DNA of 64,000 bases from Ischnura elegans (Eukaryota; Arthropoda; Insecta; Odonata; Coenagrionidae). The stretch's first letter is position 1; every line of letters starts with the position of its first letter. The position numbers and the translations under genes are program-made. Under the pieces are notes generated by a model. That model saw only the letters and a program-made list of their open reading frames with translations, ran no database searches and was not told where the DNA came from. Positions 11,301-62,100 of this stretch are shown piece by piece. The DNA lies in contig NC_060251.1 in NCBI RefSeq assembly GCF_921293095.1, forward strand, positions 55,197,585-55,261,584, read 5' to 3'.

Positions 11301-14300
11301 TCTTTATTATAAGATTTTGGTTCTCACACACATTTGAAAATATCAGGAATGGAAATGCTGTAAGCTGTCCTGATGTTATGATTACTTATTGGAATCCTCC
11401 GGCATGATGGTTTTTTTTTTCTTTTTGCAGATAGCTATCGCTTCGCGCCACAATGTTCTTAGTTTGTACAGTTTGATGACTTTGGATTTTGTGGATGAAG
11501 CAAAGAAGGAAGACTGCTACAAAACCTTGGGAACTGTCACAAAATTAGGCCATCGATCGGAAGTTCGGACGCTCTGCTTTAGTTCAGATAATTTAGGCGT
11601 TCTTTCAGCTAGCTCAGAAGCAATCAAACTATGGAACCGGTATGTCATATTTTCTTCTCTTCTCCTGTGATGGTAATTCTCTAATATAAATGTCATCCAT
11701 AACTCAACTCTTGTGGCTAATTTCATGGTAATTTTACTGAAAAGTTAGAACCAGGTGGGCTTCCCTTCCTATGGCTGCCTTGGTCGTCATAAAACTAGTC
11801 ATTCTTGTTTTTACATTATAATGATTAAGGCGTGATAGTGTTGAACGTGAACATTATGAGGTTTAAGAATTTATTCAATTTTCCATTTTTTTAAACAGGA
11901 AATAATTTTCTTATTATAATTAGATTAACTGCTTCAGCATTAAGACAAATCCTATATGAATACTGAGAATCCTAAACCTAGATCTAAAGGTTCAAAACTG
12001 CACCAGTGTTAAAGACCAGGAAAATATAGGAACTGAACCATACTTTATATAAAATGTCTATTGTTAAAGCTCTAGCACATTGATTTGCTTGTGTAAATCG
12101 TTCACAAGTTGTATTGCCTTAGAGTTATTTAATTTTTATCACAGACTTATTATATGTGACCTGGAGTGAATTCACTGTTGAATAAATTAAATAATGTGTG
12201 GTGAGATGCTTCATGCAATAACTAATAGGGATGGGCTATTGATCAGATGGTGCTCGGTTCAAATCCTGTTGGATCCTTTGGTGATTCACAAACTAATCAT
12301 CCTCATATATCATTGAAAGGACATGAATCCCCTACCCTGAATGTGTGCAATCTACTCACCAGAGCTAAGTGTGGGGTGAGCTCTACCCTATAAAATTTTT
12401 ATTGAATAACCTTGATTTTTAGAAACTGCTGCCAGCTATCCTTGTAAGTTACCCTTAAGTCAGTTGATATTCATTTTGACTCTGCTTTTATTCTCAAGAA
12501 AGAATGTCTGGCAAAATTGATGTCTTTTTATTATGCAGATTCCATCTCTTTTAGTTGAATAATTTGAGTGTATTTCTTATCTATGTTTTTGATCATTTTT
12601 TGTATTGATATATTTTGTATTTCTTAACGTGATATTAATCATTTGTTATATTATAACTTTTTATATTGATCACATTTTATCTTTTGCCACCCTTTACTTT
12701 TTTAACCTGTTAAATAATGCTTATTAATGTTTACATGCTTCTTATATATGCTTATTTATGTAACACTATGTCTTTATACTTACTTATGTAGCACTATTTT
12801 TGTACAATGGGTTAACACCCGTAAGAAGAAACAATTATTATGATATTATTATTGTTAAGTGCTGGTAAAGGGCTGTAATTACTCGGATATAATCATCTGG
12901 CTTCTGCTGTACTTCATAAACCAGGATGTACATAATAATTAACGCATAGTGATTTTTCTTACTAATCTAGCAAACTTCTCAAATATAGGGAATCTGGATC
13001 TAGTCCAAGCTAAGGCAAGCAAGTTTTGTCTGTGTACTTTATATCTAAAATATGTTAAATTCCTATCTAATTTACGTAATCTGGTTAAGCTATTATTGTT
13101 TAATTCCTAGGCCATCTCTGTCATGTTTGAGGACAGTGACTGGAGAAGATACCAAGAGTGGAAAGGTGTCATCGATTGGGTATGTGCTCTCTGCCTGTTT
13201 TGTTCCTGGTGATCGACATGCTATCATTGGCATGAGAGATGGCAGATTGTTAATTGCAGACATTGGTGCCGGAGATATTCTCGAAGAAATCCCAGCTCAC
13301 TCCAAAGAAGTGTGGTCCATTTGCCTGACCCATGATGAGGTATGGATCTGCGTTCCGAGTGCACATTGATGCTGATGGTATATTTGATGTGAAGTGGTCA
13401 CTGATAACTGAAGTTAGGGTTTCAAAGATTTTCCAAAATTCGCTTACTCCATGTCCAGTATTGCTGTAGACAACAGTTTTGCCAGTTCCTGGATTTTTTT
13501 GTCAAAGGACCTGACACCTTTGACCTGAAGACGCCAGGAGGATCACTGGCAAAACTGACGTCAATGGCAATACCTGATGCTGTCTAACCAAAAAAATGAA
13601 ATAAATCATCATCCACTCGGTAGAAACCTGAGAAGCAACTTGCATTCAAATCATTCAGGATGAAAAATAAGGGCAAAATAAGGAAGTGTGAAACCTTGAG
13701 TGGTAAATATTGAGAGAGTCATGAGATAATTTTGAGTAGACCCAGTTTGGACCAGTTGCCAGTTTGTACGGAGCACAGGTCTATGTTAGCGTTCCTCTAT
13801 AAGTCTTGTCCCATAAGTGTAATCTTCAATCCACTTGTTGCCATCAGATGATTGGGTTATAGAGTGGAGAGCAACGTCAAACCAAATGTTGGGTATTTCC
13901 CCCTCTCCCCTTCAGCGAGTGTCGCCGTCCTCGGGGTTTTCCAAGATCCGGCCGACTCACATGTGGCCCCTTTCTCGTGGTCTCTACCAAGGGGACTCCA
14001 CTCACACCCTTTTGGAGTGAGGGAGTGCCGTTACCCGAGGGTCAGTAACCCTCAGACCCTATCACCCATGCCCTTGCCGACGGCGTGGGTGTCATTCAGT
14101 GTTTAACGTCCGGGAGCGTGTGGACGCGGAGTTTTGGCGTGCGCTTCCCTGTAAGTCGCACGCGAAATTAAGAGAATTCCATCGAAGGCATCTTCGCCCT
14201 TTATTTATCATAACCCGGGGCACACGTCCCTGCACGCACATCTTCTGAACCACCACGGGCCGGATTGTGCGAACACCAATCTTTTGTTTTTTTCACCAGG

Positions 14301-17300: not shown

Positions 17301-20300
17301 TTTTGTTGGAAAGGGACAGAATGTGAGACTAGCTGATCTACTAACAATAAGTACAATCCTAGGAATAACCTATGTAATGGTAATCCTTAATCGTGCACGC
17401 ACCACGGCGCTTATTTTTAAATATAGGAAAGGCTTATCTTGAGGTATTTATCAACTATTTTTCTAGTGCGTACTTTCTTCAAGCAAATTGTGGCATCAAC
17501 ATTTATATGATAGTGCTACAAATTAGCCCTATTTACACTATTTTGGAAGTACGTGAGAATCACTTACGGTCTGCAAGTTTTACTCCAGGTAACCTACTTC
17601 CTCGTCCCTGGCTGGTATAGTTGCGATAAATATGTAGGGTAAGACGAGGTGCAGGACCTATTAGCTGACCAAAACTACGGCCCGGGAGCACCCGATTCAG
17701 CTGAGGGAGCGGCTAAATTATGCGCCAAGTATTTTACCTCCCTAATAGATGCGCAAAGTATTTCCCTCCCTAAAAAAAGGCGAATATTGGTTTAAATTGA
17801 CTTTCAATTTAATATCTGTCCGTTGTTGTTATTGGAAACCTTACCAATGGAGGCATTCATGGATAGGGAAAAGTCGTACTATTAAGTCACTCTTTAAGTT
17901 GGTTGTCCTTAATAATATAATAATGGCTGAAATATTAAAATCGAAACAATAACTAATTTATTATAACAAAAAGAAGATTAATGCGACATGATCACTAAAT
18001 ATGTTAGTGCTATCGTAAAAATTTAAGCCTCTCCTAGATATGTAAACAGTAAAAATAGAATAAAGTTTCCTCTCCTGACCTTCCTTATTATTACAACAAT
18101 ATAGTGTTTATGATCTTGGAGTATAGGTCATGTTAATAAAATACACATTTGGCCAACGTTTCGGAGATTTATTCTCCTTCCTCAGGGCTCTTAATTATAA
18201 TGAATGTTTACAAAGAGAATAAAGAAAATAAATTAATTAAGTGGTTACAAAAATTTTGATTCAAAATTTTTGTAACCACTTAATTAATTTATTTTCTTTA
18301 TTTTCTTTGTAAACATTCATTATAATTAAGAGCCCTGAGGAAGGAGAATAAATCTCCGAAACGTTGGCCAAATGTGTATTTTATTAACATGACCTATACT
18401 CCAAGATCATAAACACTATATTGTAGTAAAAATAGAGACACATTCTGCTAGCAACGACGAGGCCTAGCGATTTTTTTTGGCAATCAAAATTCCATTTTTT
18501 TTCGAAGAAACATTTCCATCGGTTTAAATACATTTATCCAATTAACAAATTGATAATTAATGAAGAAGAAAGCTTATGGAGCTATCTTTATCAGCTTCAA
18601 CCTACGTAAAGAACTATTTAATGCCAATCAATTAAATATGGTGGAGACGACAGAGTCGTTTTTTTTCGGAAAATTGCCAGTTAATTTTTTTTCATTTATT
18701 AATTCTTCTATATCGAACAAATATTTCAACAACTTAATATAAAGTCTCCTGAACGACGTTGAATCCCTAAAAATAGGGTTACGAGCGAGTTGATTTCCGT
18801 GTTCCTAATGGCGAAATCGTGCCCCCAGCCGGCCTTATGGGGTTTACCATTGGAAGCCAGGCGTCATAGGTACCCACTCTTTTAACAGGTAAATATTTTC
18901 AATTATCTACTCCAGTCAACTACGGGTACAAAAATAATCTCAAACGCCGCGACGACTTAACCCAACATCTACGCTCGTTTACTCAACTGAACATCGTAAT
19001 GATTTCCTACGTCTCACTCCCGTGTCACGATGACCCGTTCGTGAGTCGTACCCGAGCTACCATGAAGATTCATACCTAGATAGTGATCATTCAAACTTAA
19101 TGGTGGCCAGAAATCGACAATGGAGCGAAAGTGGCGCCGCTCGATTTGTTGCAAGACTTTTGCAAATGATAGTACCTTGACTTGAAGAAGACTTAAGAAT
19201 CTTCATGTGTAAGTTTTGAGCAAGAACTGTTGGGCACAAACAGAGTGGAGAACACTAAGTCAATAGATCTGAACTAGTAAACGAAGTCAATGAAAATGTT
19301 TTTAATAACTTTTGGAAAATCTATTGCATCTATTAAAATTCATATAAAATCTATGCTGAAATGATGAGTCTAGCTAGTCATGGACTTGCAATGCCAAATC
19401 GCATACACACGAGTCTAGCTTGTTATGAACTTGTGATCCCAAATCACTCAATTAGCTCATTATCAGATGTTCGTCATTTTAGCATTATTTAGGGGAACAA
19501 TATACATATTTTGGAAGTTAAACAATGTTAAAACATCCATAATATACGCAAAGTACTCATATTTCATGAAATATGATGCATTGGAAGTGATAAAATGATT
19601 TTATGCGAGTAGCAATAGCTGTGTCCTCTCTGTATTTACCCATATACTTCACAAAACGTAATAATACATAATCACTTTTTATTTCTCTGTTCTACATTGA
19701 TTACAAACAGCAAAGTATCATTTCATTGCCTACCATTCCATTTAAAAAGAACCATCGAAAAAATAAAGAGAGGATAGAAGCATGATATTCAGAAAATAGA
19801 TTGAAGTGGAAAGGGTTTATATGGAAAAAAGTGGGTATCTGCATCAGGGCCGGCCTTAGGGCGGGGCGACCGCCCCTGGCCCCGCGCTTTGGGGGGCCCC
19901 GCGTTCGTGAAAAAAAAATTAAAATATACGATAGTTTAGAATCAAGGTATCATAACGGCGTAATTACAAAGTCTGAATTTGGGAGGGGAACACATACTTA
20001 GCCAGAGAGTGGTAGGGATTCAAAATGCTCGAGTTTGTAGATGGGGTGTAGAGTTTAATATTTTAAGTGAAGGGCCCAGCACTGAAGGTTTACCCCTAGC
20101 CCCGCACCTGCTAGGGCCAGCCCTGATCTGCATGCTGTGCTGTGCAGATGCAGTCCATGCTGTCAAATAAGTGTGGAATACAATAAAGATTATAATTTAT
20201 GGAGTGATACATTGCTTTTATGCATTTCTGATACATTTCTTTTATGCATCTATATGTCAGGAATTCATTTCTTTTTGCAGAAAGGCTGCATTTCTGGGGG

Positions 20301-23300
20301 TGGTGACAGTACTGTGAGGTTTTGGAGTTTTGAGCTCATTGAAGACAAAAAGCAACCCACGGAAGACTCGGATGGAACCGTGACAAAGGGGAAAATTTTG
20401 TCACTATTTAATACCCGGGCATTGAAGCTGGAGGAGACAGTCTTATGCATTTGTATTACCCCCAATGGGCGCTTCATAGCAGTTGCTCTTCTGGATTCAA
20501 CTGTGAAAATATTTTTTATAGATACTTTGAAGGTTAGTGGGATAAATTAAACATCTGTAATAATTTTCCTTTTGATGGTGAGTGAATGTTGATTTGAACA
20601 GAATGGATTGTGCTCCTTTTTCTTTAAAATATGAAAGCCAGGTGAATCGGGAACTATGCATGAAGTTTCCAAGTAGGCTTCCACGGAGATTATGAGGGTA
20701 GGCAGCGATTCTTCCAGGTTTCCTTCCACTGAAACGCCGAATCGAAGAACACAGAAGGGCCGTAAAAAATAGACAATTGAGCCAGTCAGCAGTGGCAGAA
20801 CACTAGAGGACTTAACCACAAAATTACTTCGACAGCACCTCTTTATTGACTAAAGAAGGCCGCTTCTTCCCAAGAATCATCAGGGAGACAATTGAAATTG
20901 CCAAAACACCCAAGAACTCCAGCCGTGAAGATAGTTACACTCTCGCCAGCTCATGTAAACGGGTCTTCAAAGATCTCGACCTATAGGGCACACCTCCACA
21001 AAATAGGTGCCAAACAGGGTGTATATAAAGACGGCCAAATTTCTGCGTTGTCCCTGCAGTGGACCCGAGGAAGCCAACTGGAGCGCTGGCTGTCCAGTAA
21101 AATGGATAAAAATGGAAGGAAACCAGAAAGAATCGCTGCCTACTTTGTGTGAATTTTTAGTCGCTGGAATAGGGTGGTTTCCTATTTTTTTTATTGCTTC
21201 AATTAAAAGATCATTACTCCTGGAGTATGTACATCATGATTTTAGATTTTTAAATGACAATATCGATTTTTTTTGTGATTAAATGAAAATTTTCAAGCTC
21301 ACGAAAACGCAACGACTAAGTATGAATGCTGGGAAAAGCCCGTGTGTTGTCATTCTGGTTCCAGCTGCCGCTGTGTGAGGCATAGCATGGGCACCAATCT
21401 GGCCTTTTTCAAATGAGGTTAAAATTGACTATTAACATTCGTCTAAACTGGGGTTTCTAAAACCAAATAATTTGTATATTATAAATACACTAATGGTGGG
21501 TAACGAATCGCAATCAATGCCTTTCTTTTTCTTTGATGAAGGAAACTACCCCAATGTGCATGAATTATTCAAGAATTTAAATCAAATTAATTGTTCATAA
21601 AATTTTTCCGGTTCGACATCTATTTTCTGTTAATTATGATGTCTTGAGATCTCACTGAGGAAGTGAGACGTTCATCAATTAGGTGTTAAATTTCTATTAC
21701 TAAGTTTCTTAAAATTATGAATGTAAACTTTTGCATAAATATAATAAAGTAAAAAGTAATTTAGGGTGTTTTAAAATTCTTTTCTATCACAGTATTCACC
21801 TAAGATTAAGCTGGATTTTTATGAAATATCCCAGGAAAACCTGGAATTAGGTATGAATTTTTTTTCTTATATTGGCTGGAAACCCTGGAAAGGGTAGCAT
21901 TTCTGCATGAATATGATACCATCATAAAATTTATAAAATGTTAAAGATAATTTTATTGCTGCTTTTGATTCTTACTTATATATGCAATTCATTCAAGCAA
22001 TCAAACATTCATCTAACAAACAAGGCCATTTCTCAACCTAGTCGACTTTAAGACTCACTTTTAGCTAGAAATCCAAAACTTTAAGGCATTTATATTTAAT
22101 TAAGGGCTAAAAACATAAAGATAAAAGTAAAATCAGAATAATGCATTCCATACTTTGTTGTAAATAATCAACTATGTTGAAATATTATCTAGTTTTATAT
22201 TTTTATAAAATTGAAGAATTTAAATAGTGAACACATTACTTAAATTCTTTAATTTTCCTTTCTAATTATCCTTTAATTCATTTGAAATGGCTGTAATTTG
22301 ATACCAATACATATTTTATATGCTCATGTATTATAATTTACAGATTTTATTAATAGATACTAACAATAAAGGAAACACTACCTCTCATGTTATTTAAATT
22401 GTCATTATATATAATTTACATGATTTACAATTTACATGATTTACATTTAAGGATAAAGAATGCACTTTAAGATCATAGGTATGTTGGAAACTAATTGATT
22501 CATTTCCCCATGTCTTTAATTTTTTATACTAGGAAATTAAAATACAACAGCAGATAAGTTTAAGCATTTTACATATTTTATGACAATACACACTTAAGGT
22601 TTAATTTTTGTATCTTTTTTTCAGTTTTTCTTATCTCTTTATGGACACAAGCTGCCCGTTGCATGCATGGACATATCATCAGACTCTAAGCTGATCGCAA
22701 CTGGTGGTGGAGATAGAAATGTGAAAATTTGGGGCCTGGATTTTGGTGACTGTCACCGCTCACTTTTCGCCCATGACGACAGCATCACAGCAATCAAGTT
22801 TGTTCCAAAGACTCATCTTTTCTTCACTTGTGGACGAGATGGCCGAGTGAAGCAATGGGATGCTGACACTTTCACCAAAATTATTACTTTGCCGGTAAAT
22901 GCTTAAAGCACTCAATTTCCAGTTTCGTTTGGATTATACACTGATTTGTGATAGAACAAAAAAGACTTAAAAGCTCCGCAAACTTTATGGTGTTGTCGAC
23001 TAATTTCGGCAGCTAGAACGCCATTCTCAAGACAAGCAGTTAATATGCAGTAGAGAATGACGTTATAGCTGTCAAAACTAGTCGACAGCACCTTAAAGTT
23101 TGTGGAACTTCACTGTGTTTTTTGTTCTACCATAAATATCTCCTCATTCCACCAAGTCACTCCAAAATCAGTTGATTTCACTAATTTGTGATATTGTATT
23201 TTTCTGGTTACGATTCAGGCCCTTTCCCATTTTTACTCCTGGGTTAAACCTACACTGTCCGAAAGACAATTACAAATTTCTTTCAGCAGTAGGAATTCAT

Positions 23301-26300
23301 TTTTAACGTGCTTATAAGTTTCGAATTTTTGTCAACGTACTGGATCGTGCCTTTACTTATACATAATTCTGTATTCGTTGCATAAAAACACTTCATTTTG
23401 TTGTCTTTTTTTGCATGAAATATGAAAAGCACATCACTCATAAACTAAATTACCCATAAATTTAGTTGTATTTACTCCAATAATCTCATGAAAATTTGAC
23501 TTTTTATTTCTCCTGTGTTATTGATCAATTAGTTAAATAACCCTTTTTTTGTGTTACTCTGATATAGCATCAATAATTGTGTGGTCGCCTAAATGACGTT
23601 ACAGTAGACTCTCGTTAATACGAGCAACGTTATTACGAAGCTCTTGTTTTTACAAAGATAATTGTTGATACCAACAAAAAGGCTAATACAATCTATAGTA
23701 AAAGAAACATTATTACGAAATTTTCATTGTTACAAAGTTACGAAAGTTGTTTCCCGTTCTGGTTCAGGTTCCAGGGGTTATAAAGTGAACTTTATTATGA
23801 AGTTCCACGGAAAAGCAACAGTGTTTATACGCTAACTAATGGCATTTTATAACACAATAACGGCATATTTAAAGGTGGATGTAAACTATGCTATATCATA
23901 ATCATTGTGCTACGTTTAAGTTCTCCTTGTGCACTGTGCCCAAGGGCATCAATTATATTTCTTTTTTTTTATGATATTTCTTAGAGTATAGGTCAATGTA
24001 AACAAAGTTATAGCCAATGTTTCGATTTATTTAAAATCATCCTCAGGGCTATGAAAGAGAAAACATGAACAATATAAAATACAAAGATGACAACGATATA
24101 CAATATTTAAAATCATCCTCAGGGCTATGAAAGAGAAAACATGAACAATATAAAATACAAAGATGACAACGATATACAATATTTAAAATAGTTGTCATTG
24201 TTAAATAGTTGTCATCTTTGTATTTTATATTGTTCATGTTTTCTCTTTCATAGCCCTGAGAATGATTTTAAATAAATCAAAACGTTGGCTATAACTTGGT
24301 TTACATTGACCTATACTCCAAGAAATATCATAAAAAGTTATTAAACAAGGTCAAGAATAGAAGAGGAAAAGTAATAATAACATATTTCTTTCTTCAGTCA
24401 GAGATACTTCGGTATCCACGCAACATCATATAATAAGCTTCATTCATGTGGAATCATGATGACCCACTCATTGTTATTCGTAAATTACAATCAGTATGTC
24501 GTGTCCTTATGAACATTCAAAAAATTCAAGCATGCCCGAAATTTCTAATTTGCCTTTGGAGGTGGCCGATGCAAAGTAGTGTGGCGTAATGGAACTCACA
24601 TTTTGGGCACATTCTGATCAAAGTGCCAATTAAATCCGTTGTGAAGTCAGTAACTGTTTAACATTTTTCCTTTATGCAGACAGTGCACATTATTCGGCTC
24701 CATCCGCGTTGCATGCGCAACTAGATCAGTTCATCACAATTGGGAATGCACTCAGTAACGCAATCACTAACACAAAATTGTAATGCATTGTTGCATTCTG
24801 CAGGATAACCACACTTTTTGATGCCTTGCATAGGTTTATCAACTTACCAGCAAGCTCTCGGGACGAATTTTGTTCGTGTATTGTGGATTTACTGTATTTG
24901 TTCATAATTTAATCGCGTATATCATACACATGATTCTGAAACTATTCCACAGCACAACTACCTATGTTTAACCTCTTCCCTACGCAGGGCGTGATTTCAC
25001 GGCCTGAATTTTCTGATGCTAAAGAAGGAAGGCCGGCTTTTCACGGCTGGAATTTTTCGAAGCAAAAGGCCAAAGGCCGTTTATTCACGGTTTCGCGGTC
25101 AAGCATGCCAAGTGGGTCCCAACCGCCATTAGGGTCCCTCAGCGTGAGAGGTTCGACCCTTTCCTATTGTCCGCGTGGGGATTATCTCGGCCCATTCCGG
25201 CTCTCAGTGTCCCACTCAAGGAAGGTGCTCATGGTCACTTATTTGTTTATAAGGTGGAATAACTAAAAACGTAAATGTTGCATTTTTTGAAAATCAATGC
25301 GAGTAATTACATTCTGTATGTTCTGCTGATTGGTTCCAAATTTTAAACGGAATTCTAGCGTTCATATTAACGGAGTTGATCATCACCTAGAACAATTTTT
25401 GGGGACGCTAAGGTTAGATGTTTCATTGTTATTTTTACAATTTACTAGCAAGTTTATAGGAGAGATATTGTAATTATTAACATCTAAAAGTATACGTTAC
25501 TCTGTTAGCTACATTCTAAGTGTACATTAGCGGTGAAATTCGATAGATTATCCGATTTAACTTCTATGAAAAAAAGCCCTCGTAATGTAATAAAATTTGA
25601 TTCCCTCAGTTCTTTGTCGTGAGCCAAAATTACAGCGGCTATTTTTAATAACCTCTTACCAACCTTTGAATACAAAGGTATTATAAACGAATTTCGCTAT
25701 AAATACTGATTAATGCATATCCTAAAAATTCGTAAATTTAATGTACCAATAGGGAATGTTTTACGTAGACACATGTTGTGAGAAGCATTCCATACCATTG
25801 CAGGAATAAGAACTGCTCTGCCCAGGTAATTACTCTCATATTGTAAGTACTCTCATTGGTGTAAGTATTCTCATACTGATATATGTACGTGGAAGATGAT
25901 AACCTCACTCTTCTCGGAAAAGCTCATTTGGCTATGATATAGTGCCGTTTTGCTGAAAACCCTAAAAATAACCGTAGAACTTCGTTTAAAAGTTCTACAG
26001 GCATTACACAATAAAAGGAATACATTGATGAACACATTTAATGCAACAGTAACAATTAAAAAAATTAAAATTGCACTGGCAACAATAAACTGACCGCAAA
26101 AGTACGCCGGGATGGGCTACCTTCGGGGAAAAGGATCGAGGATTATATTTGCCCAGTTGCCGAGGGACCCCGCTAGGAAAGGTCATTAAGGGGAGGAAGC
26201 GACTACCTGGTCAGTCCCAAGCCGAAAAAAAACTCCGTACGGGGAGAAAAAGAAAATCTCAAACCTTTCGTAGAGCCAAAAGCAACTTCCCGCGAAGGAG

Positions 26301-29300
26301 CTCGGCGCGAAAAGGTTAAGTACGGGAGATTGAAAAGAGTAGGAATTTCGGCTAGGTATGTTTTTTTGCGATGATTCCTTATAGAAATGCTCTCACGAAG
26401 TTTTTTTCTTGCGAACCTCCGGTTTTTCGGTCCCGTGAACTTCATAGCCACGAGAGTTTACTTCATAACCAAGTTATTCTGTAACCAATTTTAATTCTAT
26501 CCATTGTTGTGGTGATCTTTTCCAGGGTCACAGAGGGGAGGCGTGGGCTCTAACTGTCAGTCCTAATGGGAAATTCGTGGTCAGTGCTGGGTCGGATCAT
26601 GTTCTTCGTGTATGGGAGAAGACTGAAGAGCCGTTGGTTTTGGAAGATCAGGAGGAGGTGGAGAGAGAAGAGGAGGCGAATGAGAGGGATGCCCTCGCTA
26701 CCGGAGAAGGCACTGTGGTTCCTGGACAGCATGGATCGAACTTGCCATCAAGGAAAACTGCTGGCAGCGAGAAAGCGGTAAGCCTTCAGTGAATGATTTC
26801 ACTTATTGTAATAGGTATGTGAAATTAATGGGATGAACTACCTAACTTCTCTCAAGTTTGCACCCGGATAGGAAAATCTAATTCAGACAACATTTTGGGT
26901 ACTGGCTACTGAATGAGAAATTTGAATTAACCATAGCTTTCTGTGAATGATTTCACATATTGTTATCAGTGGCACAGCGAGGGGGGGTTTTGGGGTATAA
27001 ACCCCCCCCCCCCCCAGAGTTCAGAGAAATTTTTAAGTTTAATCCATTTTACTTAATTAGATAGATATTACTTATAGAATAGCGGAAGGATTAATAAAAT
27101 ATCCCTCGGAAAGCCGTAAAACTCACCATTTTGAACCAATTATATTATAATTCCGCAATTTACTAATCTCGCACCTACCGGTTATCCTGGTGGGTATACC
27201 AAACCCCCACACACATCGGTATTAGTTGCACCTAAACCTCCCCCAGCCTTAATTCCTGGCTTCGCCCCTGATGGTTATAGGTATGTGAAATTAATGGGAT
27301 GAATTAACTTCTCTCGAGTTTGCACGCGGGTAAGAAAATCTAAGGCAGACGATGTTTCGGGTACTGGCTGCTGAATGAGGAATTTGAAGTAACTGTAGCC
27401 TTGAGAATGGGTAACGAGGCAGAAACTGAAACATCATCTGCCTTTGATTTTCTTGACCGCACGCAAACCCGAGAGAAGTTTATTCATTCTATTTGCCGGT
27501 AAAGTGTTAAAGCATACAGATATTAGTGGGGTTGGACCACTTTGATCCCTAGGTTCCCTGGATTTTGAGCTCGGATTTGAAATTAGAACTGAAGCCAAAA
27601 TGAATTGGTACCAGAATAAATTGCTACAAAATTAATAATTTTATCCTTCATTAAAATGAAGACCTTGAATTTAATCCTGTCAAATAATGTTATTTTTACA
27701 TCACCATCATACTAACTTATAGCTCTTTGACAAATGTGCAATTAGAATTTGAAACAGTTAGACCAAGGAGCTTAATAAAGGAGCAAAATACCATTAATTA
27801 AGGTTATTATATATGTATGTATTAGGATCTTATGTCTTTCCCTACTCCTGATATATTCTTTTTATAAGCGTATAACTAATTTTATCTCTGATTTTCTAAG
27901 CTTTTGTATGCTTATGATAAACAAAATCATCAGCCCCAGTAAATGTATCACCAGTTGTAACATGTATTTAAATATTTTTAAAATTACCTGTTATAAATAA
28001 AAGTTTTGAATATAACGAATATCTAACTTTTGCTCTATAGGCTGAAGAAATCATGGAAGCTATTGAAGTATTTGAAGATTATAAGAGCAAGCTTACTGCT
28101 CATGAAGAAACTTGCAAAGCACTCAAGTTGCAGGGGAAAAAAGATCTACCTCCACCTCCAGTGCCTCCTCTTCTGATGACTGCCTTCAAAATTTCTTGTC
28201 CCAACAGGTTCCTGATTGAAACTATCAGGAGAATCAGGTCTAGGTACGTATAAAATAAAAAAATAAAATAATGAAAATTTATTATGTGATGTATTTAAAA
28301 AAAATATTGATTCTCTTCTAGATTTATTTTAGACTAGAGCTTGATTCTCTTCTAGACTCATCTAGAAGAGAATCAAGCTGTAGTTGTTCTTTCTAGATTT
28401 CTTTTTCTTTAGAAGAAATGATTGGGGTAATATTATCGTGGCCTATGCATTGTACCCTCATCTAAGGTGTGTTCATTGCCACTACTTTTTTTTCTTGGAA
28501 ACTTTGGCCTATGTGTCAGTACTTTCAGCACTCACATCAATTAAAAGTTTTTTATTTTTAAAAATAAAGTTTTTATTTCTCGTGTATTTCTTTTACCTCC
28601 ATTTTATTACTCTCTGTCTTTCCTAACGCATTCAACCTTCATTTTCAAAAGCAGATTATGTAAAATTCTTTATAACAAACGGTATTGCATATATTGTAAA
28701 TTCGTATATTGTATTAGTGTTGTATACAATATGTATGTTTCCAATTTGACGAGTTCTATGTCACATGACCAGTGGAACAATAAATTTTATTATTATTATA
28801 TATCCAATAAGCATATGACTTGAATTAGTTTTTCCTCCCTTCAGTATTGTTAAAATAATTTTCTCTTTATTCTAGTGACCTAGAGGAAGCTCTATTACTT
28901 CTACCATTTTCGTGGGCTTGTCGCTTCCTTGAAGCTTCACCTGATCTCTTTAAACACTGTGGGCCTGATGTGGAGCTTTTATGTCGTACCCTGCTCTTCT
29001 TGGTTCGAGTTCACCAGGCACCTATTATTGGGGCTACACATTTGTTTCCGCTAGTGACAAATATTACACAGCTGGCATTCAAGCACTTGAAGCAGCTCAG
29101 AGTAAGTCCAGTTTTGTGACGTTGATTTACCTCTGTGTGCATTATCAATCTGATTTTTTTTGTCTTACAACTGGCTGTTGAGTGGTATTGTCCTTGATCT
29201 AACTTCGTGCCCATGAGTTTGGAGCTAAGTAAAAATACAACCAATGGCTAAACGTGAAAATTGCCTAAAATATTTTCTTAATTTATTATTCCTCAAGTCA

Positions 29301-29651: not shown

Positions 29652-29725
29652 CTGTAAATTCCATTGTTCCCCTGAAAAAATATTACCTGTATCAGGTACT
29701 TATGGTTTTTTAAGCTTGATCTATC

Positions 29726-29731
29726 AATAAA
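29726..29731 (+). other. Polyadenylation signal AATAAA of WDR3
   Basis: AATAAA 75 bases after the WDR3 stop codon, followed by a T-rich stretch. The likely 3' end of the transcript is just downstream. Confidence 0.7.
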
Positions 29732-32816: not shown

Positions 32817-35800
32817 TTAAACAGCCAAAACCTCTTTCTTCAATGCTTCTTCCTGCCCGTTTTCTTCAGATCCCGATTCCTTTTCAGTCACTGCACTTGT
32901 TCCTTCAATGTCTCCAGGAGCTCCAGTAGATTCTTCTGAATTGGAAGATGCATGTACGGAATCACATGAAGTTTCACTCTCATTTTTTTCTTTCTTCTCA
33001 CCTTTCACATCTGGAACAGCTTCCAACGATGATTTAGAAGGCTTTTCAGTGCCTTCCTTATCTTCATCTGAGTCATCACTGTCACAGGAACTTATGTCAT
33101 CTATGTCAGCCACCCTGATGAATAGAGAATATAAATTGGTATCATGAAATGCTCAGTATCTGTATGGGATTAAAATAAAAAATTTTTTGTAAAAGAAATG
33201 AGAGACAGGATTAAATAATAAGATGTTCTAATATCCATAAATTGTAGCAAAATAAAGGAATATTATAAGGGTGAGGGAACATGAAACAGTTACCAGTAGT
33301 AAAATAATTCTTAACATCTCATTATGCAAAACTAGAGGAGATTATTTAGTGTAGCTAACGCACAACCTCTGTATTTGCAGCACGATTAAAATAAGTAACA
33401 TACATCTGGACATGTTAGAAAAAAGAAGATTACGAATGACGGTGGCCTGTTGGTAAAAATTTTGGTAGGTACTCCTATCGTGGTGGTGAATATATACAAT
33501 ACCTTTAAGAATTAGATTTAAGGATTTAAAAAGGTCACAATGGCCAACTTAAATAAATATTATGGTCACTCTGAAAGAAATTATTGTGATAACTTTGCCG
33601 ATGTTGGAACTTGGTAATTTAGCAAAATGGGCTTAATTTTCCAACTACATACATAACATCATTCCAAGTGGGAGATGAAAACTAATCAGATTATGATATT
33701 ACGAGATTAAAACAAGAAAACAAAAATCATGAGAAATTATGGAGCAGCAATAAGTGAAGTAAAACGCACTAATCAATCAACTCACCATAGGCAGGACTTC
33801 TTAGAAGGCTTCTTTGGTTCAGGAAGCTTCCTCTTCTGTGAAGTTGATGGCATACTACAACTGGAAGTTGAGGCCTTCATGCCTGTAAAAATTTTAGCGA
33901 AAAACATGTTATAAAATAAGGCCATAGCCAGAAAACATTTTCTGGAGGAGGGCTTACTTAGAGCAGGGAATACATTTTGGAGTGCTCATTCCAGGAAGAG
34001 TTACACCAGTGACTTATCACCTACTATGGGCGATGGGTGCCAGAAGAAAAATTGTTGAGAAGGCGCATTAAGTGCCGTACCTGGGGCATTCTGTAACCAG
34101 ATGTCATAATAAAACATCTGTTTAAACAGTAAAAAAAATGGTATTTTTGAGAAAAATTACTTTTTTCTGTTGCTCTTATTTGTATTTTTTTCCTTTTCTA
34201 AATGCACAGTCTCTATTCAAATTGCAAAATTTGTCAGTACAATCATTTCCCAAAAACTTTCACTAGTCAGGGGGTTGCAAGCGCCCAAGCTACCATATTT
34301 CAGGGGGGATTTGAACCCTTCAACACCCCAATTTCTATTGAATTACCAGTAATGTGCAAGTACTTTGCAGTCATGCAATAACCCAGCTACAAATTAAGAA
34401 GGTTTAGGGGCACCTGCAAACCTACAGCAGGTCAAGGTGGAAGGAGTAGAAGATTCAATTGCAGTAAACTGATGGTAAACTAGGTCTTTTCATACGTCAG
34501 CTTTTAACACACTGTCATTTATTACAACATTGAGGGTGGGCTTGATGTTTTCCACATCTAATATTCTATTTCAACTCTATGTCACTGACTTTAACAATGA
34601 AAATCTCCATGCTGTGAAATCAAAGGACAAGAAGTAAAATCTTACATGGACAATGATGAGAGGTTGACAGAATCACAAAATATGATAGGGGAGTATATTC
34701 AAAACCTTACCACAAATTATGATGCAACATTGAACATCTATGCTTTCAACTTACTTCCAGGCATCAACAACAAAGATTTCTACTGATGACAAACCACATT
34801 GACAAAGTACCTTGATCAACAGCATCCCATACTTTCTCACTGAGGTCTGATCTCTGCTTTTCATATTCCTTATCTTGGAATTCATGCTTTGGTTCAGCAC
34901 ATAATCTTTCTAGTTTCTTCTTCCGCTTTTCTGCAGCTTCTCTCTCACGGTCAGCTTGCTGAGCAATCCAGTTCTTTAGCCTGCGTGTGAATGAGGAAAT
35001 GCAAAGTGTGAACAAAATTATGCACAACCCCAACAGAGGGAAAAACAAAGTTATACATAAAAAGTCGAAAGACAAATCCTACTTTTCCGAACTTTCGGAG
35101 GTCAAATTACACAATTGTATCAGTCATGAGTATCATTCCACAACTGGTATTGATATCAGTGATGAGTGCAGTAGGGCACTTCTGGGTTCTGTCCACATTG
35201 TCATTTTAGATGGTGGCGTTTCACCAACCATGCTGTAGGTGTCCTCAGGCCTAGCTGAAACATCGCCATCAAAAATGACAATGCAGATGGAACCCGGAAG
35301 TCTACCCAACAGTGAACCAGAACACTGCAAAAACCTACACCAGTGATGAGCATTTACAAACAGATAGCTTATCAGCCTTTACAGTGCCTTTGATTCGATA
35401 AGCCAGGGTAACCATCATCAACCAAAACTTGATGACACATGGACCATCAAAGAGATTATGATCCCACAACCAGAATCATAACCACTGATGTTGTATCTCA
35501 GTTTTTGCTATGATTATCAGCTGATAGTTAAAGAAAATAGAAATTTTTGTGGTGATTAGTTGAGTAGAAATTCTAATATAGTTTTAAACAACTGCAACTT
35601 ACTTGAATAATCCATCTAAAACAAATAAATATAATGCTAGCATAATACTATAGGGTTCCTTTCATTACTACCTGAACACATATACTGTCTAATTGATATT
35701 TAGCTGCCACCTCCTTCTACAGTAATAATAGATAATTTGATACAACATCCCTTGGTAACACTCATGCTAGATGGCTTTAAGTTGAGAAGATTTCTGGCTA

Positions 35801-41100: not shown

Positions 41101-44100
41101 TTAAAGACTTCGTAATGTTCTGCCACTTGAATTATTTTCCTGGCTGGATTTATTAGAGGAGTAAAAAGGGCCTAATGAGATCAGCTGTATGGTATTGGAA
41201 GGCAACAAGGTCTATTTTGTAAACACATACTTCCTAAAATAAACTTCGTTCTCAAGGATCACAAAGCTGAAGATTTATGAAATCCCAATGAGACCAGAAG
41301 TTATGGTGCTGAAGTGAGAACTCTGTCAAAATATGGTGAAGAAAGATTACTGGAGGGATCTATTGTTCAATGTAAGACAGAGACAGTGAGGGTGAGGAGG
41401 AACATGGTGATAAATGAACTTATAGAAGAGAAGGACGTAGTAAGATTCTCTTAGGTATTAAAGGTGGCAATGGTGGTTCATCTGAGAAGAATGGAAATTT
41501 AAAGAATGACAAAATAGAGTGCTATCCTATTTTTTTTAATTTCCTAAATCGAAAGATTATTACTCCTGGAGTACGTACTTAACGTTTTTGGATTTTTAAA
41601 ACACAATATGTATTTTTTGCAATTAAATAAAAAGTGAAAATTTTCAAGCATGCGAAAACGCGATGGGTAAGTATGAATGCTGGGAAAAGCCCATGTGGCA
41701 TCATTCTGGTTCTGGCTGCCGCTGTGTGGGGCCACCTTGGTGTGAGGTTATGAGCGCTGCAACGATGTAGGCTGCTAACAGCTAGCTCTTGGCTTAAATA
41801 AGGATTATTAATACCCTGTCAAATGAAGGAAACTCTCCGACCACAGCTAATTTTAATTGGTGATTATTGCGAGATGTTTCCCTGATGTCTGTGCCTCTTG
41901 TATGCAATGGTAATCTCAGGCAACTTAGAATTGCTGACTACTCGTATAGCATCTGGGCCCCTGTGACGCCACGTGGAGTGGCATTGCATGGCAGCCTATG
42001 TGGCCTTTTTTAAATGAGGTTAAAATTGACCATTAACATTCGTCTATACTGGGGCTTCTAAAACTAAATAATTTGTATATTATGAATACACTAATGGTGG
42101 GTAACGAATCGCAATCAATGCCTTTCGTTTTCTTTGATGAAGGAAACTACCCTATTATGGTGGATGGCTAGATTTTAAAGTAGTTGAGATGAGAGGTAGA
42201 CTGTGGAAGGATGGCCTTAGGGTGCTGAATAAGACTTCCAAGCAATGGGAGTCGTTAGATGAAGGGAGAGAGCACGAAGAAGGGCTGAACAGAGATGCCT
42301 ATATTAAAGCTTGCAATTACTTGTATGGGTTGGGGAAATGCAGGGTGGAGAAAAGTTATTTCACGAAATTTTAATCCTGGATAGCTGATGCCAACGGAAA
42401 CCAAAATTACTGTTGGTGTTTAGGTTGAAAACGCACCATTTTTAAATTACAGAAACTTTGAGCCAAGAGCTCTGATTGGCTGTGATTTTGCCCTATTGCT
42501 AGATGCCTTAGATACATCATGATCATTGGCGGACAAAGAATTTGAAGTTGTGAATGCCTAGAGCATGCAGTAACAAGGCAAACTCACAGCCAGTGTGAGT
42601 GCTTGGCTCAAAGTTTCTGTAGTTTAAAAATGGTAAGTTTCCAACCTAACCGTAATTGGTAATTTTGGTTACCACTGGCATCAGCTATCGAGGGTTAAAA
42701 TTTCGTGATTTACTTTTTCTCCACCCTGCATATCAGGTTTTAGAATTTGTGAAGTGTTTAATTCACGTGATTGGGTTTCAGTGCTGACATATCAGCATCA
42801 TGTAGAAGATCCTCCTTATTTTCATGCTCTTTACCCCTCATTTCTCTTTTTCTTCCCCTTCCGTTCAATAGTAACTATACGTACAAATTGGCTCTGCCAT
42901 GTACTGCTTGTTACCTGAAGATGGTCTATCAATATTGAAATCCACATCAAAGTACATGTTTTATTTTGTGGAAGAAATAACCTCATGAATTCAGTTGGAA
43001 CAAATTTGGCTTTATTTTTTGAGAATTCTCAGGATATAAGTTTGATTGCCTAAATAATAAACTGTAGGTCTGTAATGACCATTACTATGTAATTTTTTGT
43101 GTTCCTAATGATAGGTATGGATATTTATATTTTGGTTAATCGCATCTTGATTGAAACTTGATTGTTTTTGGTGAGATGTGGTGGAACCATTCCTTCATAA
43201 ATGAAATAGGCTTTGCAGGTTTATTTAAAGATTTTAGGTTTAGGTTTGACTATAAATGTTAATTTTCAATCTTGAATTTCATTCCAGGTGATTAAAAAAG
43301 ATGCCCCCACAGAATCCCATAAGGATGAAAAGAATGGTGTTGTTCTGAGATCAGGTGAGTTGTTTGCTCGGTGATCTCGTGTTTTACAAAAAATTTGACA
43401 CTTGTCAGTCAAATGCAAATTTGACTGTCCATTAAAAGTGAAATTTTTCTTTTTACCTTTTTTACGTTATGATGTCTATACTTAATGATTGTATAAGTTT
43501 TGCTCTTGTGTTTATCTTTTTTGGCAATTGTATGAATATTTTTTAAAATGAAGTTATACATATTTAGCTGGCTGTGCTTCTGTGTAAAAAAGATTAAAAG
43601 TTTCTTGTTTTTATAATGGTGAGAAAATTGGCGATTCTTTCCATGGTCCATGCCTGCATTTCAATGACTAAGTACGTGAGATGTTAAGAAAATGGCTGAG
43701 ATCAGTCTATTGAACTAAGTGCGAATGTTTTTGAAAAATCTATCTTGCAAGATGTTTTCAGCCCTGTCATTTTACTTTGCTTCAGCCGTTGGAAATTTAG
43801 AAGAGGCAATGCTATACTTTGGTTGAAAACAAGTTTCAGCCAAACTTCTCTTTGTATGCAAGTTTTTAAAGTAAATCATAATAGGGAAATCTATCAAGGT
43901 GAGGATTCAGTCTTGCACAACCCAAGTAATAAAACTAATGACTGAAAAGGCTTAGCTTTACTTATGCCTGGTTTGAAGTCACCTTCTAAATGTTGCTAAT
44001 GCTGTTAACCCAACGAGCACTGCCCCTTTACTCAACCCTATTTGGCTGTATTTTCATCAATAATGTTGCTGCAGCCATTGTTGCACTTATTATTAGAGTG

Positions 44101-47100: not shown

Positions 47101-50100
47101 AGAAATATGATTTTCAGATAAATATGCAGCGTAAAAGAAAATTGATTAAAGCTTTATATACTTAGCCATTGGGCTTAAGAATACCAGTCCTCTATCATTG
47201 TTGTAAGTTCTTTAAAAAGCGGAAAATGAGACCAATGTAATATAATGACCAATGGATAATATCTTCTTTCTTTGGTGATGATTTAGGCTTCGTCAAATTT
47301 TATGTTGTGTCTGAAATGCAAGAAATTTTCTGAGTTTCTGTCAGCTGGTTCAAGTATGATAATTTTCTGCCATTTTAGTAATGATTTGATGAAGTAAGAT
47401 GTGATACCATAAAATTTTTATGTTCTGAACATTTAATAAATACTTAATCAATTGAAATGATCATTCCTTCTGTCTAGTTTTCCTTAAATTCTCCAATATG
47501 TATCACCTAGTCACACCCTTAGCTGGGCCCCATCTATGACCATGGGCTTGTTTCAGCTCTCTTTTATTTTTTACAGTCAGTTTTAGACAGATTTAGAACT
47601 GAATTTTGGGAAGCATTTATTGACGGCATCCTGAATCGTTTGTGCTGAGGACCTGTTTTTCATCTCTTATTTTGCATTTCTCCGTTGCAAAATTTTTTAT
47701 GCTTGATAATTTGGAACATTTAATCCAATGACATACTTTATTTGAGATCTAATGCTGGGAAGTATAGTTTATAACTCAGCAGAAGCAAATAATATTTAGC
47801 AATAATTTATAATAATGGGACCATTGCAATTGACTATTAAAATGACACTTTGGGTATTGGTCTTAACACGTTGCGTACGGATGGCGAGAATTCTCGTCAT
47901 TTAGGCGCGTCAACCTAAACAATTTTAAAGCGTACAATACGTATTCGTCAGTACGTTTTCAGTTGTTGTTCGTTATTCATAATGAATTGATGCATCATAG
48001 CGTTCGATTGCGTAAAGTTATATTCTAAACATTAGCATTTTAACCATGTTTAAACCAAAGGCATTACGCCCTAATAGGCACATATTTCCAAATCAGCGTT
48101 CCTAGGAATTTAAATACCCCGGTATGCAACGTGTTAAGATTGTTAATTATTGTTATACATGTGTTTGGCTAGTTAAAATGAATTTCTTTCTATAGCTTTG
48201 TATTGTCGTTTCTGAAAAGTGTTGTTTTAGACAGGTGAAGTACATCTCTCTGAAGAACAGGCTTCGTCTATGTGAAATTAATTTTTAGTGTGGATATATG
48301 TGTATATTTCCTCAAGCCTTCCTGTCTCATATTTTTAATGAAGAAAGATGAAGTATTGTTGCATATTATTCTTCTTGTACATAGTTTGACAAGTTAGAGG
48401 CGTTACAAATAGATTGTCATAACATAATAAATAGAGGTGATTCAAATCGCATGCATGGGTTTTGTGTGGTGGTATGAAATACTTGTGTGTCACCTAAAAT
48501 GGATATTTGCTATTAATTCAGCATGAAAACTACAAATGTTAGGATAAATCTAATAATCACCCTATAGGTTTTAGATGTAGTGGAATGAGAATGATTTTTT
48601 TAAACAGTTAATATAATTCTTCCTTTAAATTAATAAATGTGCTTAATTATTTTCTTTGGCTTTCTCTAGGATCTAAACGACGATGTCGAGCAATTTTCAG
48701 CTATAAGCCAGTGAATGAAGATGAGTTGGAGCTAAAAGTGAATGACCTCATAGAGTTTATATCTGAAGTTGAAGAGGGATGGTGGAAAGGAAGATTAAGA
48801 AGCAAAGTATGTATATCTATGTCAGATCTAACTCAGTGGAGTACGTAGAATTAATAAGCTTGTGCAAAAATTTTATCTTACCTGAGAGTGAGAAAAATTA
48901 GTGTTATGGATTAGTTGGTGATGGTTTTCCGGGTTTACACCGCGTTGATTCATGTTTTTACAACGCGGTGTAAACCCGGAAAACCATCACCAATCAACTC
49001 ACTGCGGAAGCCTCCGTAAAAGTTATGGATTAGTTGTTGACTTTACCAGATTTTTTGCCTATTGCCTTCTGCTATAAATTGCTCATGTAGTTCAGAACCA
49101 TTTTGTGGGGAACCCTGTGTAGAAGTGCCTGCTTTATTGTGCTGGGAAAAAATAAATTCCTGTACCAAGGGGCGCAGCTAGGAATTAAGGCTGGGGGGTA
49201 TTTTAGGTGCAACTAAGCCTGTGGGGTGTGGCATACCCGTCAGGGTAAGCGTGAGGTGCGGGGGCCCTCGCCCAGAAAATTTAAAGATAAATGGTTCAAT
49301 ATGGTGAGTTTTACAGCTCTCTGAGGGATATTTTATTGATACTTACACTCTTATATAAGTAATATCAATCAAATTAAGTAAAATGGATTAAACTTAAAAG
49401 TTTCTCTGAGCTCCGAAGGGGGGGGTTTATCCCCCAAAACCACCCCGTCGCAGCGCCACTGCCCATACCTATCTGTTTATCAAAATATCTCTCTTACTTT
49501 ATCCTTATATTAGACATGGAAAAATAGTGGGGTTTGTATATAATTTTCTCCCTGTCGCTCTGAAAGATATCTATTCTCAATTGTTCAAGCAATCTAAGCC
49601 TAGTTGGTAGTCTCTTATTGCTCTCAGCCTAATTGGTTTAACATTTGTATAATGCTTTCTATGTACCCGTAGCAGTTTTCGATGAATCTCATAGCCTTCC
49701 TTTGTATTTTATAAAGTTCATGGATTGAGTCTTTCTGTGCCAGATTCCATATGCTTGCTGCTGTTTCTAGGTGTGGCAGGAAGAGTGCAAAATAGCACCT
49801 CTTTTTTTCTTTTTCATTGTAAAATATTCCCATAACTTAGTTGACAAATTCTAGCTTCTTCTGGGCTCTACCACAAATATTTCTTATATGTGTTCCCCGC
49901 GATATGCGTTCAAAGTTATCGTAACTCCCAGATACTTCACGTCTCTACGTTGACCTCATCTTCAACTTATATGTACTTGGGATTGGTTGGACAACCTATG
50001 CAAGAAATCTACTGCCTCCCATTTACTCAGATAAAGGTCTAGTCCCCACTCTTGGCTCCAGCCATGAACATCGTTTAAATTAATTGATAGAATGCTGAAG

Positions 50101-59100: not shown

Positions 59101-62100
59101 CCCTCATTACAATGTTCAATTTTACTTTACAAATCAAATATGTAAATATAAATTAGAATCACAAGTGTCCAGGGTAATTACTCACGAAGGAAAATCGGAA
59201 GTGACAACACATACCATTACTTCACTAATCAAATTAACGTAATTTTTAGACAGGATTGATAAGTATTCAGGACGAAAAATTCTCAGTGACTACGTGTGTG
59301 AACAAACGCAACTACTTTCATTACCTGACCCCCTTTTTGTTTATTTTCGCATCCTCAGCAAGAATTGTTGGCCATTATTATTATTCACCATTGTTTTTCT
59401 CCCATTGTCATAAAGAATTGTTACATCAGTGTCTATACTACAACTTCCTGGTAGATATAATCTCTGTTCTACACCCTCTGGTTGTTATACTCTCTCACCT
59501 GAATGAATTATTTCATAATTTGTTCAGTGTTTGATGCCTTTTGGGTGTCAAAGACTATGTTCATGCAGTGGCGTATCTATGAGGGGGGTTCAAGCCCCCC
59601 ACTTGGGTATCCAATTTACTCTACATAGAACGGTTATTTTTTTCTGACCCCCACTACTGCTCGAATTTTAAACCTCACTTAGCCACCCTCTTGTCCCTAT
59701 CCTGGATCCGCCACTGTGTACATGGAAAGAATGTAAATCTTCATCATTAAGCAAGGTAATGCCCGCGGAAGTAAGCTGCCGAGTTGGTGGTTATGGTAGA
59801 GGGAAGAAGTGTTTTACTGCAGGGAACTGAGAACGCTCAATAGACCTGAAGAATTTTACTGTCGCAAGCTGCCGATAGCCAAAATTCAATAATTTACAAA
59901 AGCTTTTAAAATTTGACTTGCATTCATTTTAAGTCTTGAGAATAATCTAAAATGACTTCGAACACCTAGCACTGGGGCTTTCACTCAGGCCAAAAATCAC
60001 ATTTCATTAAAATAATGGGACAGACAGAACAGAAAAGTAAGTTCCAGCAAAAAATTACATCATTCAGTTATCCTCTCATAATTTCCCTGTAAAAAAAGGA
60101 GAAAGTTGCCAACCACATTTTAGTATTAGGTGACGTCATGAGAGTTCCATTTCATAAACTTGTTCAGACATAACCATTCATTAAGACAGTGAATCACTCA
60201 CATGAAGGTTAAAAACAGCAAACCATGGTCAGGTCAAAGAGTAGTGATCTGAGAAGTAGTGATCTTCTTGGTGGGAGTTTATGGCATAATCAACTTTTCA
60301 GTGGAAGGATTAATGCTGTTGATTATTTGCTACAAATATACTGAGAGGTAGGCAGCAGAGTGAACAATGGAAAGATTCTGGTCTCTTTATTTTTCAACCC
60401 CATGCGATAAACTGCAAGTATTTCTGGTAATCTAGATTAATGGGGAGGCATCCTTTGTTGATCAATGAGAGCTGTACGAATTCAGCAATTTATGACCTTT
60501 GTTATGAGATGGGCTACATTGTCACATTAGCCTGTTGAGATAGGAAGTGATGTCTTCATAGTATCTTTTGATTAATTTTGAATTTCTAGTTTATTGCATG
60601 ATGGAGTTGGGTTTGTAGCTACTTGAAATGTGTTTGGTGGCACTGCTAGTGTTTTTTTTTGCACCAGTATGGATTGTCTGAGTCCGTAAGAGTTAGTGTT
60701 CACCACCAGAGTTTGAATAACTTATGTCATAAATGTGTGGAACTTCATTTACTTTTGTTAGCTATCTCATATTTCATTCAAGAATAGTCTCTTGGTAAAA
60801 GTTTCAAGTCAATAATAGATAAAGATTTTTAACTGATTCATTTCTCAGTGATCCAGTGTTAAATTCAATTAGAATTGAAACAAATTGAATTCCAAGTGAA
60901 TGCTAACAGTGGAGTGCTCTCATCACTGTCACTTGCTTGACACCTGAAATTTTATTGTACTAAATTGAGCTACATTTCTCTTTCTTTAATGTCAGCATTG
61001 AACCTTTTTTTCTGTATGAGCAGCCAGATATACTCCAGAGTAAGGTGGAGAAAAAATTTTTGAAATAAGATATTGAAACCTTTTTCTTTATTGCATAAAT
61101 CAAAAAACACAAATCTTGAACACAATTGATAAATATTTAGGACAAGAAATTGGGTGCGACAATGCGTAAGACTAAATGCCACTATTTCCATTATATTTCT
61201 CCCCTTGTTTGTTTATTTTCACGTCTTCCAAGAGAATTATCTTTCACCATTATTTGACTCTCATTAGTTTCTCCTGTTGTCAAGGATAATTGTTTCGTTA
61301 GCCCCATTTTAAAGAAAACGTTTGAGGGACTTAAAGTCATTTTCTTTTAAATGTCTTCGAAACACAACTCTTAAACTTTAATAATGCAGCAAAAAATTTT
61401 TGTAACATAACCTTCCTTAACTTCTCCAGTGGAAGCCCCTGTGCCTTCGAGTTTGACCTTTCCTTTTTTTTTTCTTTTGTATCTATGAACTCCACCACTG
61501 CCACCCAGGCCAGCTACTTATTTTAAATATCTGAATGGACTCTCTCCATCATTTTTTACTATAGTTTTAGTTGTTCTCGTGATTCATGAATTCACAGCTG
61601 ATGAAGGAGCAATGCAATTCTGAAATGTTGGCTGATTAAAGAGTCCGAAAGCCTAAGAGCAAAACTTTTCCTGGGCCAAGAATTGAACTAGAGATTATTG
61701 CCTTTTCTGGCCACTGTGCAGAGCAATATACAGCAAAACCTCTTTATATCGTAATGGAGGGGACCAAAATTTGGGCAGTTTGATGTATGGAGGTTCACTA
61801 TAGAGAGGTTTTTGCGATAGGCACCATTTTTTCATATAATTCGGGAATGTATTAGGTTCCTTGATTCTCATATCACTTTACCAAGGTATAAGGGGATAGA
61901 TGTTAGGCCTAGTTGTGGTCCAAAAGGTGAAGGTCGGTGCTATTATTCCATGAGGGAATTTTTTCCCATTGCAATTCATATAAATTTCACCACTTTTCAA
62001 GTTCCAGGATTGAAATTATAAATAAAAGTATCATTTTAAGACTATTTTGCTACTTGCTTACGTGCTTATTTCGTAAATTTTGAGGACTAGGAGAGGGAAC

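Follow-up and report, generated by a model that had tools for sequence, protein, structure and literature searches.

Hammerhead ribozyme motifs in head-to-head insertions of Penelope-like elements in Ischnura elegans: a probable trace of two-sided priming

Introduction

Cervera and de la Pena in 2014, and Luense, Weinberg and Breaker in 2017, are said to have described minimal type I hammerhead ribozymes in Penelope-like elements, and the title of the 2017 paper reportedly speaks of dimers. In its available part, a 2020 review calls the role of these ribozymes a mystery (PMC7761336), and the mechanism by which Penelope elements insert is still under study (PMC11167929). For PAc, an element of the anole, both target strands are cut and extended in vitro, and two start sites bound a tail (PMC11167929). 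Here we analyse a 64-kb window of the 1.72-Gb genome of the odonate Ischnura elegans (contig NC_060251.1, positions 55,197,585 to 55,261,584), in which a first-pass annotation had proposed eight hammerhead-like loci as ends of several Penelope-like families. Six of these loci are real, and it is likely that they are 5'-truncated head-to-head insertions of endonuclease-bearing Penelope-like elements that arose by two-sided priming.

Results

The six loci lie at 18.1-18.4, 24.0-24.4, 22.9-23.2, 35.2, 13.5 and 27.4 kb, and the families to which they belong are named by locus F1 to F6, in this order. The boxes of all eight candidates do stand where they had been placed. The bare motif CTGANGA-N{4,30}-GAAA, however, occurs 16 times in the window vs. 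5.4 +/- 2.6 times in shuffled sequences and is weak evidence, being about 3-fold over chance. A strict descriptor, which demands paired stems I and II plus an NUH site, yielded four window positions (18185-, 18335+, 23030- and 24046-, the sign giving the strand) vs. 0-2 in 60 first-order Markov controls. Covariance model R1, built from 19 sequences chosen for intact cores, window positions 18327-18373 among them, matched at E<1e-5 at 24248+, 24008-, 18147-, 18327+, 13517+, 35207- and 22990-, and marginally (E 0.04-0.17) at 24084-, 23048+ and 27393+. Model R2, built from 38 copies of chromosome C1 and without any window sequence, was significant only at 18152-, 18334+, 24013- and 24255+, i.e. 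at the 18.1- and 24.0-kb loci, and stayed at noise level at 13524+ (E 0.17), 27402+ (2.1), 35223- (4.3) and 61597+ (6.6), all of which score worse than position 20859- (E 0.12). Thus, the four damaged loci at 13.5, 23.0, 27.4 and 35.2 kb are supported mainly by copies elsewhere in the genome, where the boxes that have decayed in the window can still be made out; with the query itself counted, the genome holds at least 55 matches for F3, 40 for F4, 42 for F5 and 47 for F6. All six real loci are located within inverted repeats, four as detected by a repeat finder and those at 13.5 and 27.4 kb as seen by eye.

Three loci, at 27400, 42915 and 61598, had been regarded as weak from the start. The first is marginal (R1 E 0.17) but real by its copies, its true box being the second GAAAC and not the first. 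The other two are rejected as hammerheads: neither has an R1 match up to E=10, and for 61598 a genome search returns only the locus itself. A 177-nt inverted repeat at 42335-42734 (81% complementary) is free of hammerhead matches and ends 180 bp before the rejected position 42915.

That the six loci are chance matches to a short motif, an explanation that would suit the 3-fold enrichment of the bare motif and the two rejected candidates, has a practically negligible probability. The exact core CCTGANGA-N{9,26}-GAAACGTNGGC has 5,129 + 5,161 = 10,290 genome matches, vs. 0 + 0 for the reversed pattern, and at least four of five stem II pairs are formed in 89 of the 100 cores listed from one contig, so that chance is refuted for these loci, as it is by covariation. 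One additional nucleotide separates CUGANGA from stem II: in 66 distinct inserts 277/330 cells are paired at offset 1 and 130/330 at offset 0. When the 5' and 3' stem halves were exchanged between rows, 187.5 +/- 6.8 cells were paired, and none of 2000 swaps reached the observed value. In a set of 38 equally long rows, 84.2% of the cells are paired vs. 61.2% in shuffles, with a covariation score of 0.622 vs. 0.251 (0/500 shuffles for both), and in 19 exemplars from about ten families the values are 88.9% vs. 59.8% (0/500). Two of the five measures, the counts of double-change pairs and of pair types, were no better than shuffles in the 38-row and 19-exemplar sets. Within F3 stem II covariation is absent (176/216 paired vs. 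173.7 +/- 2.0; 376/2000 swaps as high), as expected for dead copies. The proposed stem II covariation on genome copies is therefore found between families and not within F3, and judged from these alignments the fold was maintained between families while dead copies drift, in agreement with the earlier claim that selection kept the stem before insertion.

The assignment to Penelope-like elements is based on coding sequence for F1 and F2, while F3-F6 are linked to them by anatomy alone, and within this limit the family claim of the first-pass annotation is supported. In longer F1 copies, one reading frame includes a GIY-YIG domain, and both longer F1-like frames that were scanned combine a reverse transcriptase domain (RVT_1; 9.9e-8 and 2.7e-7) with GIY-YIG (about 1e-6) in one frame. 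For the F1 open reading frame (ORF), 126 genome matches are listed (62-100% identity), and the 3' flanks of 20 of them were sampled (ORFs 63-93% identical to the F1 frame). The exact core is present in 19 of these flanks, 178-262 bp past the coding end, with stem II GGAGA/TCTCC (2), GTTTT/AAAAC (7), GATTT/AAATC (4) or GGACA/TGTCC (6), all fully paired; in the twentieth the ribozyme box is damaged. For F2, a coding remnant is located upstream of the ribozyme in one copy (L032). Searches of the PDB with the Penelope ORFs gave no useful match. In a further locus (L052, 1571-1663) an F2 end adjoins another hammerhead-like Penelope-like end, apparently an insert within another element.

The outer ends of the F1 and F2 inserts follow a strict rule. 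From 30 F1 and 30 F2 loci we scored 37 distinct paired inserts, the others being duplicates or single-ended (15 loci), and every one has one short and one long, i.e. tailed, outer end (17/17 for F1, 20/20 for F2), which under independent equal choice has a probability of 2^-37. The flanks of F1 inserts share 12-15 bp in 17/17 cases, at least 10 bp being shared by 1/272 mismatched pairs, and those of F2 inserts share at least 10 bp in 17/20 cases vs. 10/380 mismatched pairs (range 9-15 bp). Head-to-head inverted ends, a tail on one of them, a short duplication and 5' truncation are thus found together in F1 and F2; F4 has the ends by eye and the duplication. Orientation follows the same scheme, as ORF matches less than 5 kb apart are head-to-head in 11 cases, tail-to-tail in none, tandem in three and a split copy in one, and in the 100 cores listed neighbours are head-to-head in 16 cases, tail-to-tail in one (two different sequences) and on the same strand in two. 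In seven loci (L092, L097-L101 and L107) GACCT or GACCC is found about 30-44 nt past GAAAC and AGGTC or GGGTC downstream, which may base-pair to form a tail hairpin, and from family to family the T-to-C and A-to-G changes compensate each other.

Inverted repeats with target duplications would also be expected from non-autonomous fold-back or miniature inverted-repeat (MITE-like) DNA transposons in which the hammerhead-like motif is incidental. We regard this as hardly credible, since each outer end takes one of two fixed forms while the inner ends vary freely and the arms are unequal, and since longer copies hold the C-terminal part of the Penelope ORF, a coding content that contradicts it for F1. 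Metazoan retrozymes are non-autonomous repeats, arranged in tandem, that carry type I hammerheads. Their layout is likewise of type I and their stem III weak (available parts of PMC7229834 and PMC7761336), and they are very improbable here as well: in these partial sources they are described as tandem repeats of about 150-450 bp, whereas all six loci are inverted rather than tandem, and F1 and F2 have been traced to coding elements.

The two arms of an F1 insert differ by 0.35%, whereas arms of different inserts differ by 2.7% (0/2000 permutations; 11 of the 17 inserts), suggesting that both arms derive from one source. Near-identity of the arms would likewise result if a single cDNA, started at the distal site, snapped back and copied itself into the second arm, and such self-priming is, in the available part of the source, the published reading of palindromic Penelope copies in rotifers (PMC3846280). 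The arm lengths, compared in the F1 inserts, allow this in 9/17 cases, and the long-ended arm is the longer one in nine. A copy cannot exceed its template in length, but in 7/17 inserts it is the short-ended arm that is longer (by at least 77 nt in five); the arms are equal in one. Had the short-ended cDNA been made first, a copy of it would lack the tail. Moreover, a copy would extend into the target flank, but the flanks carry direct duplications. We therefore consider snap-back improbable: as arm copying can yield neither a longer short-ended arm nor a tail, two cDNAs, each copied from RNA and joined mid-insert, are the better explanation. The F1 arm junctions show overlaps of 1-9 bp in 9/17 inserts and short or longer filler in eight.

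The ribozymes are of two core types. In F1 and F2 (in the window) and in F4 and F5 (in genome copies) the boxes CUGANGA, GAAA and NUH stand between the stems. F3 and F6 depart from the CUGANGA/GAAA consensus at positions 3 and 8, where U3-A8 replaces C3-G8. A pattern for F3 that allows both states at both positions has 77 matches, comprising 72 U3-A8, three U3-G8, two C3-A8 and no C3-G8, and the pattern for F6 has five (four U3-A8, one C3-A8). The six U-A cells in the 19-exemplar set are not independent evidence, as the rows were chosen by core. As scissile triplet, the 23.0-kb locus has GUC, and so do copies of the 27.4- and 35.2-kb loci, as the first-pass annotation had expected (GTC/ATC), whereas the 18.1- and 24.0-kb loci have GUU and AUU. 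In most families, though not in F5, all that is left of stem III is ACGU or ACUAGU, both self-complementary.

The F1 palindromic insert extends from 18060 to 18424 and is flanked by 12-bp target duplications (18048-18059 and 18425-18436). Its left end is long (tailed) and its right end short, and the repeat finder gives arms of 174 nt, 98% complementary, with 1 nt spacing. The left-arm hammerhead (18147-18193, minus strand; R1 43.8 bits, E 3.6e-9; R2 E 3.4e-8) is composed of stem I GCC/GGC, CUGAGGA, stem II GGAGA/UCUCC, GAAAC and GUU; its right-arm counterpart (18327-18373, plus strand) has the same values in R1 (E 3.6e-9), of which it is a member, and in R2 (E 3.4e-8), which was built without it. 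The insert is located between exons of a WDR3-like gene (7393-7803 and 20086-20550, both plus strand; Pfam WDR3 second propeller, 3e-22, at 20086).

The F2 insert (23955-24391, target duplications of 10 bp at 23955-23964 and 24382-24391, with a competing 9-bp match at 23974-23982) is short at the left and long at the right end. It has arms of 135 nt (95%) and holds a second, partial minus-strand copy of the ribozyme at 24084-24130, which stops after the CUGAGGA box (R1 E 0.044, marginal). The hammerhead in the left arm (24008-24054, minus strand; R1 E 2.2e-10, R2 E 4.4e-8) consists of stem I AUAGCC/GGCUAU, CUGAGGA, GAUUU/AAAUC, GAAAC and an AUU site, and in the one in the right arm (24248-24294, plus strand; R1 E 3e-11, R2 E 2.9e-5) G8 is changed to A and the box is damaged to AAAAC.

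F3 is represented by an insert at 22944-23193 with 10-bp duplications (22944-22953 and 23184-23193) and arms of 85 nt (81%), the left end being short and the right long as judged by eye; it stands outside the 15 F3 pairs scored for their ends. Its minus-strand hammerhead (22990-23038; R1 E 8.3e-6) has the UUGAGAA core (U3-A8), stem II UGGC..GCC, a GUC site and stem I UGUC/GACA, and a remnant in the right arm (23048-23091, plus strand) is marginal in R1 (E 0.13) and recognisable from genome copies. The F4 insert (35157-35350; 10-bp duplications 35157-35166 and 35341-35350; arms 46 nt, 80%), by eye short at the left and long at the right end, has a right arm that is broken inside the ribozyme. 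Its hammerhead (35207-35256, minus strand; R1 E 6.2e-6) has GCC in place of the scissile GUC, and genome copies carry GAAACGUC/GCCA, the slash marking the cleavage site.

The copies of F5 (13440-13600) and F6 (27300-27500) are decayed palindromes, and a search for target duplications found none in either. The F5 hammerhead (13517-13567, plus strand) has an R1 E of 2e-8 and a non-significant R2 E of 0.17, is backed by genome copies, and comprises stem I UUGAC/GUCAA, CUGAAGA, GCCAG/CUGGC, an AAAAC box and a damaged site. The F6 remnant (27393-27450, plus strand) has the UUGAGAA core and a marginal R1 E of 0.17 for 27393-27425; stem II GGGU/ACCC and the cleavage site GAAACGUC/GGCU are found in its genome copies.

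Elsewhere in the window, an SDE2-like coding stretch is located at 36492-37097 on the minus strand (Pfam E 1.5e-14), and four nested pairs of inverted-repeat arms (86-92%) at 3454-5364 surround a frame of 190 amino acids with no Pfam match.

Discussion

Direct duplications together with element 3' ends on both sides suggest a staggered cut whose 3' overhangs prime on RNA. On two-sided priming, the GIY-YIG endonuclease would cut both strands and leave 3' overhangs of about 12 nt, from each of which reverse transcription would start on RNA of a common source. The cDNA begun at a distal site would yield the long end with the tail, and that begun at a proximal site the short one. The points at which the two cDNAs are truncated would be unrelated, and the cDNAs would be joined mid-insert. 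Each arm ends in the 3' region of the element, with a minimal type I hammerhead. The cutting and extension of both strands by PAc, and the two start sites that bound its tail, agree with this scheme (PMC11167929). Old insertions can be read as a record of the mechanism, in which the end rule, the common source of the arms and their unequal lengths allow two-sided priming to be told apart from snap-back with no experiment. In the papers that our literature search returned, some of them available in part, we found no count of one short and one long end and no reading of such a rule by two-sided priming.

Several observations weigh against this view. The two-stem hammerhead is the minimum free energy structure in just 2/7 folded examples (F1 and F6). 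No Rfam model matches the window at gathering thresholds, and at E<=10 none of the 14 matches in 12000-64000 is a hammerhead, so that the Rfam check that the first-pass annotation had proposed fails, whereas the custom model made from genome copies does match; a genome search with RF00008 gave no match anywhere, and the control genomes were equally without one. As to the ends, F3 is short-long in 13/15 pairs and short-short in two, the 15 single-ended F1 and F2 loci stand outside the scoring, and one F1 insert (L026) came out as long-long under a less stringent tail pattern, a result traced to a chance match, whereupon the pattern was tightened. For F2 the signal of a common source is weak (3.5% vs. 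4.2%, equal medians, 4/2000, ten inserts), and some F2 inserts may be copies from one palindromic master. A single stretch, the 2.5 kb separating two F3 cores, was examined for an F3 ORF, and none was found. Finally, PAc shows no difference in start sites between the strands in vitro (PMC11167929).

The top relaxed Rfam matches (mir-19, mir-790, mir-1002 and mir-203) lie on both strands of palindromes; palindromes with such microRNA-family matches on both strands lie at 18223-18297, the centre of the F1 insert, and at 48913-48995.

As both arms run through the cleavage site, the templates would have been uncut at this ribozyme copy, just like the RNA that is copied by PAc in vitro (PMC11167929). 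Dimers are suggested by the fact that ACGU and ACUAGU, which replace stem III, are self-complementary, and from the sequences the likeliest use of the ribozyme would be dimeric self-cleavage that processes tandem RNA. Among relatives, tandem Penelope ORF matches with a spacing of about 3.0 kb occur at C6:85.3 Mb and C4:30.7 Mb, and the former region (G000:C6:85308963-85315904) contains three tandem matches spaced by 3,003 bp.

One might go further and speculate that Penelope insertion is obligatorily paired and asymmetric, with two RNAs of the same source, held to each other by the self-complementary stem III of their hammerheads, being brought to the two 3' overhangs of a single staggered cut, one of them distal-primed and the other proximal-primed, the ribozyme being partly a device for RNA pairing and F3 and F6 showing a natural swap from C3-G8 to U3-A8. 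Taken as a whole, we regard this extended version as doubtful. Swaps of the 3-8 pair beyond C3G/G8C have been tested in vitro. C3G or G8C alone abolishes cleavage and both together partly restore it (PMC11167929), which makes a swap of this pair plausible. If active, F3 and F6 would represent naturally occurring double mutants at a pair that is usually taken as fixed; our literature search, which did not reach the 2014 and 2017 papers on Penelope hammerheads, found no description of U3-A8 hammerhead families.

The elements of I. elegans can be compared with three known systems. Like the Poseidon element PAc from Anolis carolinensis, they have an ORF with reverse transcriptase and GIY-YIG domains, a hammerhead and two start sites bounding an optional tail; unlike PAc, for which the strands behave alike in vitro, the F1 and F2 inserts use one start site per side, and the ribozyme is read after the ORF of truncated copies, whereas in PAc it overlaps the ORF start (PMC11167929). 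The Penelope elements of Adineta vaga, as described in the available part of the source, resemble them in head-to-head pseudo-long terminal repeats, target duplications of 8-10 bp and an optional tail on one repeat, their palindromes being explained there by self-priming, possibly on an antisense template (PMC3846280). With the published Penelope hammerheads they share the core, the missing or minimal stem III, the place in the element's repeat and the suggested action as dimers, and they differ in that F3 and F6 have U3-A8 in place of the usual C3-G8. Hammerheads in Penelope elements are thus already known, and the families described here are new members that add a variant core and a strict rule for the outer ends.

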